This document shows positions 52,721 through 60,857 of a DNA stretch of 64,000 bases, piece after piece. Every line of letters begins with the position of its first letter. Position 1 is the stretch's first letter. The stretch spans positions 1 through 64,000 of the forward strand of contig JANQSE010000009.1 in the NCBI GenBank assembly GCA_028284195.1. The letters are read 5' to 3'. This DNA comes from Balneola sp. GTDB lineage: Bacteria > Bacteroidota > Rhodothermia > Balneolales > Balneolaceae. The position numbers were made by a program, and so were the translations under genes. The notes beneath the pieces are model-generated. The model was not told the DNA's origin. It saw only the letters and a program-made list of their open reading frames with translations, and ran no database searches.

Positions 52721-53659
52721 TCACTTCTTATTTTCCTCTTTAAACTCATCCAGCGATAATCCTTTCATAACCGCATCATAGCTGGAAATATCCTTAGGCA
52801 GGATAATATCGTTCTTATTCTGTCCCAACCCGGATAATGTACCCAGGTATTTTTCAGCAAGACGAAGTTTCATGGCTTCTGTACCCATAGGAGCTGACAG
52901 AGCATCCGCAATTTGTTCGATAGAAACAGCCGTTGCTTCTGCAATGGCTTCAATTTCTTTGGCCACACCTTCCGCTTCATTAATACGGCGCTGTTTTTCT
53001 GCTTCAGAAATATTAATCATCTCAGCTTTAAGGCCTTCACCGTCATTTTCTTTACTTCCAAGTACACCTTCTGATTTTGCAATAACTGCACGGCGATCCC
53101 TTTCAGCCGTCATCTGGCGCTCCATCGCTTTTTGTACCGTTCTTGGGGTAAGGATATTTTTTATCTCGTAACGATGAACTTTAATACCCCAAGGCAGTTC
53201 CATTTCGCTGAGCACTTTTACCACTTCTTTACTCATGAAGGCACGTTCCTCAAAAGTCTGATCCAAATCCATTAAACCTATAACCGAACGGGTGGTGGTT
53301 TGCGCAAGTTGAATGGCTGCATATCGGTAATTGGTAACCCCGTAGCTGGCATTTACCGGATCAGTTACGCTGAGGTAAATCACTCCATCTACTTCTACCT
53401 TTACATTGTCTTTGGTGAAACATTCCTGTGGTTCCACTTCGATAGTTTCTTCTCTTAAATCCTGCTTGTACACTACTTTATCAACGAAGGGAACCAGGGC
53501 ATGAAAACCCGGCCCTAACGTTTTATGATAATTACCGAGACGTTCTACAATGTAAGAATACTGATTAGGTACTAATCGGAGCGACTTAATGATCTTAAAG
53601 ATCAGGAACAGAACAAAAAGGCCAACAAGAATCTGGCTTACAATTTCGACAATTTCCAT
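52721..53659 (-). CDS. SPFH/Band 7 (stomatin-like) protein
   Basis: VERLGNYHKTLGPGFHALVPFVDKV, NASYGVTNYRYAAIQLAQTTTRSVIG. Confidence 0.95.
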   Translation of the reverse strand: MEIVEIVSQILVGLFVLFLIFKIIKSLRLVPNQYSYIVERLGNYHKTLGPGFHALVPFVDKVVYKQDLREETIEVEPQECFTKDNVKVEVDGVIYLSVTDPVNASYGVTNYRYAAIQLAQTTTRSVIGLMDLDQTFEERAFMSKEVVKVLSEMELPWGIKVHRYEIKNILTPRTVQKAMERQMTAERDRRAVIAKSEGVLGSKENDGEGLKAEMINISEAEKQRRINEAEGVAKEIEAIAEATAVSIEQIADALSAPMGTEAMKLRLAEKYLGTLSGLGQNKNDIILPKDISSYDAVMKGLSLDEFKEENKK

Positions 53660-53662
53660 AGC

Positions 53663-54604
53663 TTATTCTCCTTTTAGTTCTTTGTGGTTCGAATCTTTTG
53701 TGTGATCGCTCACTTTGCTTACCCCTTCAAAAAAGGTTTTTAGATTGGCAGTTTCGGTAGGTAATACCGAAACATTGGTTTGTTTAAGAATTTTTCCGAA
53801 TTGCTCGATGTACTGTTCTACCAGTTTGGTTTTAACGGCAAGCTCTCCACCCGGTTTTTGCATGGCTTCAGCAATTCGCTTTACACCGTTTGCAGTAGCC
53901 GTTGCAATTAACTCAATTTCTTTTGCTTTACCGGTAGCTTCGTTAATTCTTTTTTGTCGGGATCCCTCAGAAACAAGAACCTGGCTTTTTCGTTCACCTT
54001 CCGATTCATTAATTCGGGCCTGACGGAAACCTTCTGAATGGGTGATTTCTGCTCTTTTTTCCCGTTCGGCTTCCATCTGTTTTTCCATGGTATCTACAAT
54101 CTCATTGGATGGGCGGATGTTCTTAATTTCATACCGAAGCACTTTAATCCCCCAGGGATCTGCTGCTTTATCAATTTCCCGGACAATATTTTCATTCATT
54201 TTTTCCCGTTCAGAAAAGGTATCATCAAGGGTAATTTTACCTACTTCACTACGCATAGTGGTTTGTGCAAGATTAATTGCCGCTGCTTGATAGTTAGAAA
54301 TACCATAGCTGGCTTTGTAAGCATCCATTACTTTTATATATACTAGCCCATCTACCGCAACCTCAATATTATCTTTGGTTATACAGGTTTGGCTGGGAAC
54401 GTCCAGCACTTGCTCACGCATCTCTCTTCGGTAAGCAGGCTGATCCGCAAAAGGAATCAGAAAATGAAATCCTGGTTTCAGGTTCTTCTTAAATTTACCA
54501 AGCCGTTCCTGAATTACTTCTTCCCGCATTTCCACGATGATAAATAACCGTGTAAGAATGAAGTAAAGAATAACAAGTGTGATGAGAATGCTTGTCCAAA
54601 ACAT
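53663..54604 (-). CDS. SPFH/Band 7 (stomatin-like) protein, paralog
   Basis: QERLGKFKKNLKPGFHFLIPFADQP, KASYGISNYQAAAINLAQTTMRSEVG. Confidence 0.95.
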   Translation of the reverse strand: MFWTSILITLVILYFILTRLFIIVEMREEVIQERLGKFKKNLKPGFHFLIPFADQPAYRREMREQVLDVPSQTCITKDNIEVAVDGLVYIKVMDAYKASYGISNYQAAAINLAQTTMRSEVGKITLDDTFSEREKMNENIVREIDKAADPWGIKVLRYEIKNIRPSNEIVDTMEKQMEAEREKRAEITHSEGFRQARINESEGERKSQVLVSEGSRQKRINEATGKAKEIELIATATANGVKRIAEAMQKPGGELAVKTKLVEQYIEQFGKILKQTNVSVLPTETANLKTFFEGVSKVSDHTKDSNHKELKGE

Positions 54605-54612
54605 AAGGTTCT

Positions 54613-55107
54613 TTAGTTTTTTTCTTTGAGTTTTTGCGATTGAGGTTCTTTTATTTGATCAACCGGTTCTACAATCCAAGTGGTATTATCCCGGTATTTG
54701 ATGCGTACTTTTTTCCCGGAAGGAACTTCTCCCTCAATAGTTCGTGCTTGCCATGAAATTCCCTGAAAGCGAATTCTGCCCTCATTATTAAATTCATTGA
54801 CAGGTTCAACCACTTCCACAATTTGATCCATGGCTTCATAGTCCTCATCGGCGAGCTTAAACGAAGTTTCACCTTTTAAATACTTACGGATTATGGGCAT
54901 CGCAAGAATGCTTATGGCAGCAGAAGTAAATACCCATGCCATAGTTGCAGTAATTGGGTCTTCCAGAAATCCAAGAAAACGAGCAAGTGCTACAAGCAAA
55001 CCGCTGGCACCTAAAATCAATGCCATTCCACTTGGAACAAGGAATTCCAGCAGCATCAGAAGTATCCCGCCAATTAAAAAAATCCAGGTGAGTAGCTCGC
55101 TATCCAT
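54613..55107 (-). CDS. NfeD-family membrane protein
   Basis: MDSELLTWIFLIGGILLMLLEFLVPSGM...; C-terminal OB-fold EGRIRFQGISWQARTIEGEVPSGKKVRI. Start assigned at the internal Met, 55107. Confidence 0.85.
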   Translation of the reverse strand: MDSELLTWIFLIGGILLMLLEFLVPSGMALILGASGLLVALARFLGFLEDPITATMAWVFTSAAISILAMPIIRKYLKGETSFKLADEDYEAMDQIVEVVEPVNEFNNEGRIRFQGISWQARTIEGEVPSGKKVRIKYRDNTTWIVEPVDQIKEPQSQKLKEKN

Positions 55108-55328
55108 GGCTCTGTGATGAATTTTACCGTCTTTAGTAGATAGTAAATTGATCAATAAAAATCTCAACAAGTTGGCATTATTTTTGTGTTTATTTGATTC
55201 GAATAAAATCACTAATGTCATTCAAAGGCTGCTGCCTGCCTTAGGTATTCCTATGGGAGAAAGGTCCTCGAATCTTCATGAGAAAATATTTGTAGATTCT
55301 TCGCTATTACTCAGAATGATCAGCTGGT

Positions 55329-57116
55329 ATGCCCGATAAAGAAGAAAAAAAGAATTATTCCATTACCTCTCTAAAAGAGACGCTTGTAAAAATATTTGCG
55401 CTAAGTAAACCATACAGGAGGCGCTTTTACTTTGCGACCGTTGTGGTTTTGCTTGCATCAGGGATTTGGCTAACCGTTCCACTTGGTTTGAGAGAATTAC
55501 TTGATGCAGTTTTTGATAAAGGAGATGAAAGCCTACTGAACCTTTTGGCTGTTGGATTGATTGGTTTGTTTATACTACAAGCTTTGTTCAGTTTTGCAGG
55601 GAACTATCATCTTGAGTGGGTGGGAGAGCGGGTTGTTACCGATTTGAGAAAGAAAGTATATGAGCATTTACATCGTCTGGGCTTTCGTTTTTTTGCTGAA
55701 CGCAGGTTAGGAGAAATTACATCTAGGCTTACAAATGATGTAGGTTCCATCCGAACCGCACTTACCGACTCTCTTCCACAGTTACTCACTATTTCTTTTT
55801 CGCTGATAGGTTCAGTCTCGTTAATGGTCGCCTTGAACTGGAGGTTGAGCGCAGTGATATTTGTTACTGTTCCATTTGTGACCATTGCCACCCGATATTT
55901 TGGTCAGAAGATTCGAAAGCTTTCCCGGGGGATTCAAGACGATCTCGCAGATTCTACAGCAGTGGCAGAAGACGCGTTGGGAGCTGTTCGGCTGGTAAAA
56001 GCATTTGTACGGGAAACCTATGAGGTAACACGTTATTCCGATTCTATAGAAAAGCTATTTACAACGGTTCGAAAGAAAGTAGTACTCACTCAATTGTTTT
56101 GGTCGGGCGTTGGGATTATGTTTATGGGTACGCTCGTGGTAATTTTCTGGTATGGAGGGAAGGAGGTACTCGCCGAACGACTAAGTGCCGGCGACTTGGT
56201 TGCATTTATTATTTATGCCTTGAATATATCCCGCTCAATCAGCCAAACTTCCAGATTATATACAGCAGTGAATACAGCCGCTGGGGCTTCGGAACGAATT
56301 TTTGAATTGTTGGAAGAAATCCCTGAAATAGAAGATAAGCCTGATGCCAAAGAACTTTTGGAAGTTAAAGGAGAGGTTGAGTTTAGAGGAGTCGGTTTTC
56401 AATATGAAGAAGATCGCCCGGTTTTAAGAGATATAAACTTTAATGCCAGAGCAGGAGAGACGATTGCATTAGTTGGGCCAAGCGGAGCAGGAAAAACGAC
56501 TCTATTAAATCTGATCCCAAGATTTTATGATGTACAGAAAGGTGAGATTTTGTTGGATCAGGTTTCAATTTCAGATTTGAAAGTGAAACCATTCAGAGAA
56601 CACATCTCCATTGTGCCTCAGGAAGTTCATCTGTTTAGTACAAGCATAAAAGATAATTTGAGATATGGTAAACTTGATGCTTCAGATGAAGAGCTTATCC
56701 AGGCTGCAACGGATGCTAATGCCCACGATTTTATAATGGAAAACCCGGGTGGTTATGACTCCTTGATTGGAGAGAAGGGAGTAAAACTAAGTGGGGGACA
56801 AAGGCAGCGAATAGCTATTGCTCGTGCTATTCTGAAAGATCCTGAGATTCTTCTATTGGATGAAGCTACGTCTTCGCTTGACTCTGAATCTGAAGCACAG
56901 GTGCAGGAAGCGTTAAACCGATTGATGAAAGGAAGAACTACTTTTGTAATTGCTCACCGTCTTTCCACTATACAAAACGCAAATCGTATTTTAGTGTTGG
57001 ATAAGGGTGAAATTGTAGAAGAAGGAACACATCATGAACTGTTAACCAAAGGAGGTTTGTACAGCCATTTGTATGAATTACAGTTTCGGGATTTGGCCGG
57101 AGAGAGTTTGGGTTGA
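55329..57116 (+). CDS. ABC transporter, fused TMD-NBD (MsbA-like exporter)
   Basis: GPSGAGKTTLLN, LSGGQRQRIAIARAIL, LLLDEATSSLDSES. Confidence 0.95.
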   Translation: MPDKEEKKNYSITSLKETLVKIFALSKPYRRRFYFATVVVLLASGIWLTVPLGLRELLDAVFDKGDESLLNLLAVGLIGLFILQALFSFAGNYHLEWVGERVVTDLRKKVYEHLHRLGFRFFAERRLGEITSRLTNDVGSIRTALTDSLPQLLTISFSLIGSVSLMVALNWRLSAVIFVTVPFVTIATRYFGQKIRKLSRGIQDDLADSTAVAEDALGAVRLVKAFVRETYEVTRYSDSIEKLFTTVRKKVVLTQLFWSGVGIMFMGTLVVIFWYGGKEVLAERLSAGDLVAFIIYALNISRSISQTSRLYTAVNTAAGASERIFELLEEIPEIEDKPDAKELLEVKGEVEFRGVGFQYEEDRPVLRDINFNARAGETIALVGPSGAGKTTLLNLIPRFYDVQKGEILLDQVSISDLKVKPFREHISIVPQEVHLFSTSIKDNLRYGKLDASDEELIQAATDANAHDFIMENPGGYDSLIGEKGVKLSGGQRQRIAIARAILKDPEILLLDEATSSLDSESEAQVQEALNRLMKGRTTFVIAHRLSTIQNANRILVLDKGEIVEEGTHHELLTKGGLYSHLYELQFRDLAGESLG

Positions 57117-57174: not shown

Positions 57175-57885
57175 AACCCATCCCTGTCCCTTCCCTTAAC
57201 TAAGGGAAGGGGACGTGTTAATCAAATACTTATAGTTTAAGAGTTTCCCTCCCTGATCTTAGGGAGGGAACATGGGTGGGTCACAGAAAGAAGTAAACTG
57301 GGTGGTTCAGAAAAAAACGGAATAAACTATTTCCATTTTAAGATGAATTAACTACTGTTCTGCATGGACTTGTCTAAAAAAGGTATCACAGAATTAGCAA
57401 GAGAGTTAAGAAAAAATCAAACTCCTTCAGAAAAACTGCTTTGGGAATCTATCAGAAAGAGAAAGCTTAACGGATTACGGTTTGTACGAGAGAAACCATT
57501 TGTGCATACCCAATATGAAACAAAAAGGTACTTCTATATCGCAGACTTTTATTGTGCCGAGCATAAGCTGGTTATTGAACTGGATGGAAAGATCCACGAT
57601 TCTCAAAAGGATTACGACTTTCAAAGAACAGAAGTGTTAAAAAGTTTGGGGCTGAAAATTCTAAGAATTAAGAACTTGGAGACTTAGGATCTGTTCGTCG
57701 AAAAATTTTGAATGCAGTGAGGAAATAACCCATCCCTGTCTGCTCCCGAGCGGACTTGGAATAGGGTTCTGAATAACAAGAAAAGCTAGTCTTTGCGAGT
57801 AGTCTGAATCGCACCAAAGTTATCAACAGCACTCGAAGAAGCCTGTTTACCGTATGTTACTATGGAAGGGGAGGGTTGGGGTGGG
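57175..57885. mobile_element. Putative palindrome-flanked DUF559 cassette
   Basis: aacccatccctgtc at 57175-57188 and 57727-57740; CCCTTCCCTTA-ac-TAAGGGAAGGG and TTCCCTCCCT-gatctt-AGGGAGGGAA before the ORF; ggaaggggagggttggggtggg after it. Confidence 0.45.
57364..57687 (+). CDS. DUF559 domain protein (PD-(D/E)XK/Vsr-like nuclease fold), possibly C-terminally truncated
   Basis: LRKNQTPSEKLLWESIRKRKLNGLRFVREKPF...YIADFYCAEHKLVIELDGKIH. Confidence 0.88.
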   Translation: MDLSKKGITELARELRKNQTPSEKLLWESIRKRKLNGLRFVREKPFVHTQYETKRYFYIADFYCAEHKLVIELDGKIHDSQKDYDFQRTEVLKSLGLKILRIKNLET

Positions 57886-57899
57886 ATCAAAAAAAAGCC

Positions 57900-58955
57900 C
57901 TAATCATTATACACCCTTATCACATCCGAATAACTCATATCCGTTAAAAGTCCCCGCTTATCAAGTTCAGTTAAATAACTTACGGGGACTCCGCTTGTGT
58001 AAAGGCCTATAATACCTGAATAAGAATAAGTGTCAATAAACCCTGCTTTTTCCAGATCGGTTAAGTATTCAGTAGTAACTCCACTGCTATGCATTCCTAT
58101 GATGCCGGAGTATGAGAACTTATCAAGCATATTTGCAGAACTGAGCTGATCCAAAAACTCAATACTTACTCCGCTACTTGAAAGGCCAATTAATCCGGAG
58201 TAAGAAAACTTATCCAGATATCCGCCCTGCTCCATCAACGAAAGGTACTCGGTAGAAACTCCTGCATTGTACATCCCGATCAATGCCGAATAAGAGAACT
58301 TATCCAGAAACTCGCCGGTTTGCATCTGGTCTAAATACTGGGTGGTAACCCCACCGTTGTAGAGCCCAATAATGGCAGAATAGGAGAAATCATTTAAATA
58401 CCCGGCGGTACTCATTTGATCTAAATATGCAATGGGTACTCCCCCGTTGTATAAGCCAATAATTGCTGAGTAAGAAAAATCATCTAGGTACCCGGCTGCT
58501 TCTAAGCTTTCCAGATAAGAAATTGGAACACCGCTATTATAAAGTGCCTGGATTCCCGAAGACGAAATTTGATTGGTAAATCCTTTTTCGGTGGCTTCTT
58601 GCAAATAATCAAGATAAGAGTCTGGTACGCCTTGCTGGTTAGATAATCTTTCAGGTAACGGAACAGGAGGAGGTAGAGGAGCCTGAACAGCGGCTTGACC
58701 TTGGGTAACTACATTTGTTTGGCTGCCACTATCTGTAATAAGCCACGAAAAGGGGCCAAAAGTGAAAAGCCATACTAACGAAATAACCCCAAAAATTGAT
58801 AACGCGGCTAAATTTCTTTTTGCAGAGGGTTTTGGTATGGATTGCTCTTCATCAAATCCATCTTCGATTTCTTCTGATGATTTTTCGTGCAAGTAGGAAT
58901 CCAGATCAAAATCTTCATCTCTTCTCAAGTCATTTTTAAATCTCTGGCTGCTCAT
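57900..58955 (-). CDS. Single-TM protein with 30-residue repeats (FSYSxIIGLYxxGV type), about 8 units
   Basis: Repeats YLDQMSTAGYLNDFSYSAIIGLYNGGVTTQ etc.; TM AALSIFGVISLVWLFTF; N-terminal DFDLDSYLHE. Confidence 0.85.
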   Translation of the reverse strand: MSSQRFKNDLRRDEDFDLDSYLHEKSSEEIEDGFDEEQSIPKPSAKRNLAALSIFGVISLVWLFTFGPFSWLITDSGSQTNVVTQGQAAVQAPLPPPVPLPERLSNQQGVPDSYLDYLQEATEKGFTNQISSSGIQALYNSGVPISYLESLEAAGYLDDFSYSAIIGLYNGGVPIAYLDQMSTAGYLNDFSYSAIIGLYNGGVTTQYLDQMQTGEFLDKFSYSALIGMYNAGVSTEYLSLMEQGGYLDKFSYSGLIGLSSSGVSIEFLDQLSSANMLDKFSYSGIIGMHSSGVTTEYLTDLEKAGFIDTYSYSGIIGLYTSGVPVSYLTELDKRGLLTDMSYSDVIRVYND

Positions 58956-60443
58956 GTTATTGTCCTTCTAGTTGGTATGCACTAACTACTGATGATGAAG
59001 ACATATCGTTTAACAAGCCCTTATCATCCAGTGTTTTAAGGAAGCTTACCGGAACATCATTCTGGTATAACCTGACAACCGATGTACTCCCGAAGTTATT
59101 CAAATACCCACCGGCAGCTAAATCTTCGACATACTCTTTAGGAACATTATTTTGATATAACCTGGTAATAGAAGTGCTGCCAAAGTTATTAAGTAACCCT
59201 GCGTTCTTAAAGCTTTCTATGTATTCAAACGGAACCTGATTCTCATAAAAACGGGTTATAGAAGTGCCTCCAAATTCATTCATCATTCCGGCTGTTTTAA
59301 ACCGTTCGATATATTCGAATGGCACTTGATTTTGATACAAACGTGAGATAGAAGTGCTTCCAAAGTCGTTCAACAATCCTGCACTGTTTAATTGTTGGAT
59401 ATATTCTATCGGTATCTGGTTCTGATATAGTCTTGAAATTGACGTGCTTCCAAAATTATTCAGCATGCCAGCTTTTCCAAATTGGTCGATATATTCTACA
59501 GGAACATTGTTCTGGTATAAACGAGTTGATCCGCTTCCTCCAAAATCATCTAAATAACCATATTCTTTTAGTTGAGACAGGTAATCGGTATAGCTGATTC
59601 CTAAATCATTTGAATTTGCATTAAAGTTGTCATTAAAATTAAAGTCGAAGTTAAAACCTTCGATTGATGGAGGCGGGGGAGGAACCGGAAATGCAGTACC
59701 CTGGCCTGAACCTTGAAAGAATGCTGTTTGTCCGTCTTGTGTAGAAATAACCTGACTTTCCTGGCCGAAAAATGAGAATGGATCACTCACAAAAAACCAT
59801 ACTGCAGGTACTAAAACAACTAACAGTGCAATGAGGTTGCGTTTTGTGGTTGGTTGAGGCGCACCAAAATCTTCTTCATCAAAGTCGTGCTCAGTGCCAG
59901 CTTGTTCAGTTATATACGCATCCAGATCAAAATCGGGATCATCATTTCGGTTCAGGTCATTTTTAAATTTTTGAGTACCCATGTTACATCCTAATTATTT
60001 TCACTTTTATATAATTCAACTACAGAAACAAAATTCAGATCGTTATACAGGTCTTTTTGCTTAAGTTCGTCAAGAAATTCGGTTGTAACTCCTGCTTTAT
60101 AGTATTCAGTTATTGCAATAAAATTTAAATCATTCAGGTAACCGCTCTGGCTCAGTTTCGAGAGATATTCCATCGAAACATTATTTTTGTAAAGTTCTGA
60201 AATCCCAATGAAATTTATATTCTCAAGAAACCCGCCTTCATCAAGCTGGTTTATATAACTAAATGGAACGTTGTTTTTGTAAAGTTCTGAAATGGCTATA
60301 AAGTTAAAATCGTCCAGATATCCGGCTGCGTCAACTTGTTCTAAGTATTCAATAGGAACTTTAGCGTTGTATAGCTGTGTAGCATCAAAAGTGGATAGTT
60401 TGTTGTCCCCAATTAAGCCTTTCTGTTTTAATTCAGCTAAATA
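57903..60443 (-). repeat. Coding 90-bp-period repeat arrays (three blocks: 57903-58616, 58960-59583, 59994-60443)
   Basis: 30-aa units counted in the three ORF translations. Confidence 0.85.
58957..59982 (-). CDS. Single-TM protein with 30-residue repeats (FGSTSISRLYQNQVP type), about 7 units
   Basis: Repeats YIQQLNSAGLLNDFGSTSISRLYQNQVPFE etc.; TM LIALLVVLVPAVWFF; N-terminal DFDLDAYITE. Confidence 0.85.
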   Translation of the reverse strand: MGTQKFKNDLNRNDDPDFDLDAYITEQAGTEHDFDEEDFGAPQPTTKRNLIALLVVLVPAVWFFVSDPFSFFGQESQVISTQDGQTAFFQGSGQGTAFPVPPPPPSIEGFNFDFNFNDNFNANSNDLGISYTDYLSQLKEYGYLDDFGGSGSTRLYQNNVPVEYIDQFGKAGMLNNFGSTSISRLYQNQIPIEYIQQLNSAGLLNDFGSTSISRLYQNQVPFEYIERFKTAGMMNEFGGTSITRFYENQVPFEYIESFKNAGLLNNFGSTSITRLYQNNVPKEYVEDLAAGGYLNNFGSTSVVRLYQNDVPVSFLKTLDDKGLLNDMSSSSVVSAYQLEGQ

Positions 60444-60857
60444 ATCGGTGGCACTGGGTAAGGTAACCAGCTCAGGCAATTTGGCTAATTCATCCTGAAT
60501 AACTCTTTCCAATTCCTCTGCATCAACGTCAGGGATTTGTATATCAGGAATCTCAATATCCGGGATATCAATTACTATTCTATTTCCTGATTGTTCAACC
60601 GCAACCGGAGTGGCTTGCTCGGTACCAAAGACACTATCGAAGGCTTGTTTAGGGCTCCAGTCGTGGTACCATAAAAAGGCGGTTCCTAAAAGTGCTGCTC
60701 CTAAAATTGCATTCTTTAGAAAAGATCCCGCAGGCTCTTCTTCTATAGGTTTTTGAGATTGTGTTGGCCGCTGCGACTGTTCATCCAGGTAGGAGTCTAA
60801 GTCGAAATTTTCATCTTCTTGTCTTTTTTTAAATCTGCCCTGTTGTTCCATGTCCAT
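59991..60857 (-). CDS. Single-TM protein with 30-residue repeats (NFIAISELYKNNV type), about 5 units
   Basis: Repeats YLEQVDAAGYLDDFNFIAISELYKNNVPFS etc.; TM AILGAALLGTAFLWY; N-terminal NFDLDSYLDE. Confidence 0.85.
   Translation of the reverse strand: MDMEQQGRFKKRQEDENFDLDSYLDEQSQRPTQSQKPIEEEPAGSFLKNAILGAALLGTAFLWYHDWSPKQAFDSVFGTEQATPVAVEQSGNRIVIDIPDIEIPDIQIPDVDAEELERVIQDELAKLPELVTLPSATDYLAELKQKGLIGDNKLSTFDATQLYNAKVPIEYLEQVDAAGYLDDFNFIAISELYKNNVPFSYINQLDEGGFLENINFIGISELYKNNVSMEYLSKLSQSGYLNDLNFIAITEYYKAGVTTEFLDELKQKDLYNDLNFVSVVELYKSENN

Follow-up and report, generated by a model that had tools for sequence, protein, structure and literature searches.

Three adjacent genes of a Balneola sp. 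contig form an operon in which an uncatalogued repeat, found before on BlaR1-type proteases, occurs in a new, free-standing arrangement. Both the architecture of the encoded proteins (P0001–P0003) and their homology are well supported; on present evidence, the operon does not amount to a system of a categorically new kind. The alpha-solenoid repeat defined here goes unrecognised in Pfam, NCBIfam and PDB searches, and it ties the extracytoplasmic part of some BlaR1/M56 sensor proteases to membrane-anchored proteins that stand alone. P0001–P0003 are small, have a single transmembrane (TM) helix and lack Cys in all three solenoids, and thus offer a tractable route to what the repeat binds.

Gene organization and repeat fold

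In the window (the whole stretch of 64,000 nucleotides that was analysed), P0003, P0002 and P0001 are adjacent minus-strand ORFs transcribed in this order from 60857 to 57900, with gaps of 8 and then 1 bp (Table 1). The initial annotation had described three neighbouring same-strand genes separated by 1–8 bp, and the ORF positions are exactly as given there. Judging by its orthologs, the true start of P0003 is probably the second ATG, at 60851. Close copies of the cluster genes display dN/dS values of 0.04–0.13, which shows that purifying selection acts on functional proteins. Downstream, directly next to the operon, lies a DUF559/MTES_1575-type nuclease-like ORF (57364–57687, plus strand), a nearby relative of which occurs only at locus L039 among the compared clusters.

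Table 1. Features of the operon, in window coordinates
Feature	Position	Strand	Description
P0001	57900..58955	-	Third and last gene; 351 aa; units of 'SYSAIIGLY' form (position 4 type)
P0001 conserved cytoplasmic motif DFDLDSYLHEK	58881..58913	-	Pattern match 58884–58910; helix 18–26 in the model
P0001 predicted TM helix, residues 45–65	58761..58823	-	AlphaFold2 model and hydropathy
P0001 alpha-solenoid, residues 112–351	57903..58622	-	8 units of 30 aa; repeat HMM; pLDDT ~90 or higher
P0002	58957..59982	-	Second gene; 341 aa; units of 'GSTSISRLY' form (position 2 type)
P0002 repeats, residues 132–337	58972..59589	-	7 units; repeat HMM
P0003	59991..60857	-	First gene; 288 aa; units of 'NFIAISELY' form (position 1 type)
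P0003 predicted TM helix, residues 45–64	60666..60725	-	Hydropathy; low confidence in the model
P0003 repeats, residues 136–285	60003..60452	-	5 units; repeat HMM and model

With a family-derived repeat HMM, P0001, P0002 and P0003 show 8, 7 and 5 units, all in a strict register of 30 residues. The i-E values are <1e-9 for most units, the first units of P0001 (2e-6) and P0003 (0.036) being weaker. The counts of ~30-aa units read earlier from the sequence are therefore the same by HMM, and the numbers of helix pairs predicted by AlphaFold2 for P0001 and P0003 agree. In the P0001 model, the repeat region forms a helix-pair alpha-solenoid with one pair per repeat, and the N-terminal tail, apart from one short helix, and the linker are disordered; the repeat region of P0003 adopts a like fold (pLDDT ~90). 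The P0001 solenoid is acidic, with 8 K+R versus 28 D+E. The idea of an expandable repeat is right in that the number of units differs between genera, but within a genus units are mostly orthologous by position. Mean unit identity there is 0.6–0.7 on the diagonal versus 0.3–0.5 off it, indicating that the arrays are not quickly expanding.

No Pfam or NCBIfam model (LED_rpt, HEAT and others) matches P0001–P0003 over its curated cut-off, PF05569 (Peptidase M56) has no match in them and no solved structure matches in a PDB sequence search; across Pfam, NCBIfam and PDB, no single characterised repeat family thus accounts for all three. Foldseek against solved structures yields no significant analogue, the PHROGs (phage) and PADLOC (defence) profile libraries give nothing useful, and no description of the repeat was found in the literature. 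Among relatives, the sole match over a cut-off is BTB_2 in L054 (25.1 versus 21.4 bits); it covers 35 residues of repeat and was for this reason judged spurious.

Membrane topology and the N-terminal motif

In hydropathy profiles of 74 family members, the median of the best window is 1.83 and that of the runner-up 0.8, indicating one TM helix per protein. K and R are richer on the N side of this helix in 58 of the 74 members (mean 2.57 before, 0.58 after), and by the positive-inside rule this bias favours an outward C-terminus. In M56 proteins, the repeats are extracytoplasmic by BlaR1 topology. The positive-inside rule and this analogy together favour an extracytoplasmic location for the repeats of P0001–P0003 as well. 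An acidic N-terminus and a single TM helix per protein, both proposed at the outset, are borne out; the proposed Pro/Gly/Asn-rich linker does not extend to P0003, where an IPDIxIPD segment takes this place. The linkers are disordered in prediction and differ from paralog to paralog.

Common to the paralogs is the tail motif FDLDxY[IL]xE, carried by the short predicted helix and probably serving a common cytoplasmic partner. A degenerate DNA pattern for FDLDxYIxE gives 38 matches in 39 genomes, 36 of them inside the family, and a reversed-pattern control gives none. The sole two matches outside the family (G017:C50:124872 and G012:C2:530511) are stray, and a partner system reached through other proteins with this motif was discarded.

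Distribution, paralog types and surface strips

Of 59 related genomes sampled, 21 contain relatives; at E values up to 1e-10, relatives occur in 28 of 92 Balneolaceae genomes, in 8 of 21 genera. Those named belong to Balneola, Gracilimonas and unclassified Balneolaceae, which marks the window as part of a Balneolaceae genome. In the contig search, P0001 alone as query retrieves none of them and an alignment as query does. Synteny across several Balneolaceae genera shows that conservation of the gene set goes beyond this strain. Clusters comprise one to four paralogs, with single-gene clusters in genomes G010, G288 and G290. Such variation of copy number and membership between genera argues against the fixed three-component complex suggested earlier. 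Four position types recur, namely type 1 (P0003), type 2 (P0002), type 4 (P0001) and a type 3 that is missing from the window. Type 3 proteins have ~250 aa, a linker rich in LEGLENLE and no more than one or two units; in clusters of the same and of other genera, the gene is placed between those of types 2 and 4, and it was probably lost in the lineage of the window. In the family tree, type 1 and the stand-alone paralog are well separated, and support is weak for the deeper branches of types 2 and 4. The genome itself encodes a fourth close paralog (C17:136669-137643), adjoining a gene that is glycosyltransferase-like by inspection, and a fifth, divergent one (C4:156780-157469).

Residues 20–26 of the unit are near-identical in all internal units and orthologs of one type and different between types. 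This strip reads S-Y-S-x-I-I-G in type 4 (S20 at 97%, S22 at 98%, G26 at 95%), G-[SG]-T-S-I-S-[RT] in type 2 (G20 and S23 at 100%) and S-F-V-x-I-[ST]-E in type 1 (F21 at 100%, E26 at 84%). One motif reiterated along a rod suggests a multivalent face.

Genomic neighbourhood

On one side, clusters usually border on an oppositely oriented ABC transporter gene, beyond which lie an NfeD-like gene and a pair of stomatin-like genes, and on the other side on a DUF2911 or threonine dehydratase gene (NfeD, stomatin and dehydratase neighbours were named by inspection). Positions 52721–57116 of the window hold the two stomatin-like genes, the NfeD-like gene and the ABC transporter, a neighbourhood kept in nearly all compared genomes. 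The ABC transporter, stomatin-like pair, NfeD-like and DUF2911 neighbours are largely a matter of synteny and carry little functional information. A gene combining CarboxypepD_reg and vWA/YfbK lies beside many clusters, in some on the same strand (L038 11791–13680, L039–L044, L049 and L074). As a partner, this gene (beside ~10 clusters) was rejected, since its full-length form is absent from the genome under study and hence is not essential.

Kinship with the repeats of BlaR1/M56 proteins

Nine proteins of other Bacteroidota with 29-residue repeats carry the Pfam Peptidase_M56 (BlaR1) domain, and the small genes adjoining repeat-bearing M56 genes are Penicillinase_R (BlaI) repressors in all four cases scanned. 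With two-unit profiles, hhalign aligns the repeats of this family with those of M56 proteins at E 2.2e-10 (score 56, 33% identity); 60 column-permuted versions score at most 10.7 and a reversed one 6.3. The common pattern, GVxPxYIxxLxxxGYxxLSxxxLIxLxxx, thus extends beyond composition at the profile level. The initial annotation had pointed to a likeness to BlaR1/M56-associated repeats, and these profile alignments together with the Pfam M56 and Penicillinase_R domains verify it. The profile of the divergent paralog, referred to as C-type, finds P0001 at E 7.8e-5 and M56 repeats at E values as low as 9e-20; judged by sequence profiles, this single-TM protein is a bridge between the free-standing and M56 repeat groups. 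The repeat is absent from all 30 M56 loci of Balneolales scanned, so that these genomes show no sensor partner, and no M56-type repeat was found in a plasmid search.

Other arrangements exist in Bacteroidota. Repeat-only proteins of 316–535 aa with apparent signal peptides and without M56 occur at L120 4601–5788, L121 3572–6414 and L122 4175–5125. Those of L120 and L121 adjoin repeat-bearing M56/BlaI genes and share an extra domain with the sensor, and may represent sensor–partner pairs. A 1174-aa M56 protein (L129 948–4472, plus strand) combines DUF4097, HEAT repeats and a few 29-aa repeats.

Possible roles

The reading preferred here, tentative and at just short of an even chance, is that P0001–P0003 are membrane-anchored periplasmic solenoid scaffolds that bind proteins and are docked to a shared cytoplasmic partner; genes, repeats, homology, predicted fold, conservation and motif come from computation, and we infer sidedness in the membrane, the binding and the partner. 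Each would be a single-pass inner-membrane protein with a cytoplasmic N-terminus and a periplasmic C-terminus, in which a disordered extracytoplasmic linker would bear a rod-like alpha-solenoid of 5–8 helix pairs. The paralog-specific strip, repeated in every unit, would offer its multivalent face to one partner or to the other paralogs, and FDLDxY[IL]xE in the disordered acidic tails would dock all paralogs on a single cytoplasmic partner that they share. Two findings are also consistent with sensing, namely the homology to M56 sensors in their extracytoplasmic part and the conservation of a short cytoplasmic motif across paralogs. The solenoids would then detect an extracytoplasmic signal, as M56 repeats presumably do, and the tail would hold an anti-sigma- or antirepressor-like regulator that is freed on binding. 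This reading by analogy with BlaR1 is, together with the envelope platform described next, the main rival, and it is unlikely: a single sensor is not usually made of tandem paralogs whose surfaces differ, and ORF maps and the representative proteins read or scanned showed no gene for a sigma factor, BlaI or a protease among the neighbours conserved beside the clusters, the PF03965 (BlaI/MecI) scan taking in part of these neighbours.

Adjacency of the genes with minimal gaps, and distinct strips that are partly charge-complementary (E26 in P0003 versus R26 in P0002 units), would suit an envelope assembly in which the paralogs bind each other by their strips and build a hetero-oligomeric inner-membrane platform directed towards the outer membrane. 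This too seems improbable, given that the R/E pairing is lost in other genera (G221, G017, G032 and G012), which leaves it as a lead only, and that one-gene clusters occur. In the envelope scaffold of repeat rods originally envisaged, location and scaffold are supported by predicted topology and fold, and adhesion is unsupported. Adhesion or surface display, with the solenoids outside the cell, is very unlikely: repeat rods on stalk-like linkers recall stalked adhesins in general layout only, the proteins have no signal peptide, lipobox or sorting domain but an internal TM helix (~45–50 residues in), and the units are position-conserved under strong purifying selection, whereas adhesins usually vary. 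Nucleic-acid binding by a TALE-like superhelix of helix pairs can practically be dismissed, as the Foldseek likeness that suggests it is weak and non-significant (BurrH 4cj9, E 0.13, prob 0.91, TM-score 0.25; TALE 4hpz, E 2.7), and the solenoid is acidic and predicted to be extracytoplasmic. Beyond the preferred scaffold reading, a broader proposal is doubtful as a whole, namely an undescribed Balneolaceae envelope system with as many as four single-pass solenoid proteins, inherited together and distinct in their strips, which would be tied by their common motif to one cytoplasmic partner, have a common ancestry with the BlaR1-sensor repeats and serve as a multivalent array for assembly or sensing in the periplasm.

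Comparison with known systems

TALE and BurrH are, by Foldseek, the closest solved natural solenoids to P0001, at a statistically non-significant level. They are DNA-binding and built of units of 33–35 residues, as against 30 in P0001–P0003, and no sequence similarity was found between them. The main text of a screen for TALE-like repeats (PMC5472282) makes no mention of M56, BlaR1 or Bacteroidetes.

A homologous repeat is found at the C-terminus of Bacteroidota BlaR1/M56 proteins with adjoining BlaI genes (L120, 908 aa; L121, 900 aa; L123–L129). Its unit has 29 residues instead of 30, and neither version has a Pfam model. In the M56 group, the repeat forms part of a fusion with a multi-TM metalloprotease, often via an extra domain, whereas in P0001–P0003 it is free-standing on a single TM helix, with a conserved acidic tail and tandem paralogs. 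The C-type paralog (L037 in this genome; also L069–L073 and L090–L116) resembles P0001–P0003 in its short N-tail, one TM helix and repeats, and differs from them in its 29-residue-type units, its occurrence as a single gene in another conserved neighbourhood and its lack of FDLDxYIxE.
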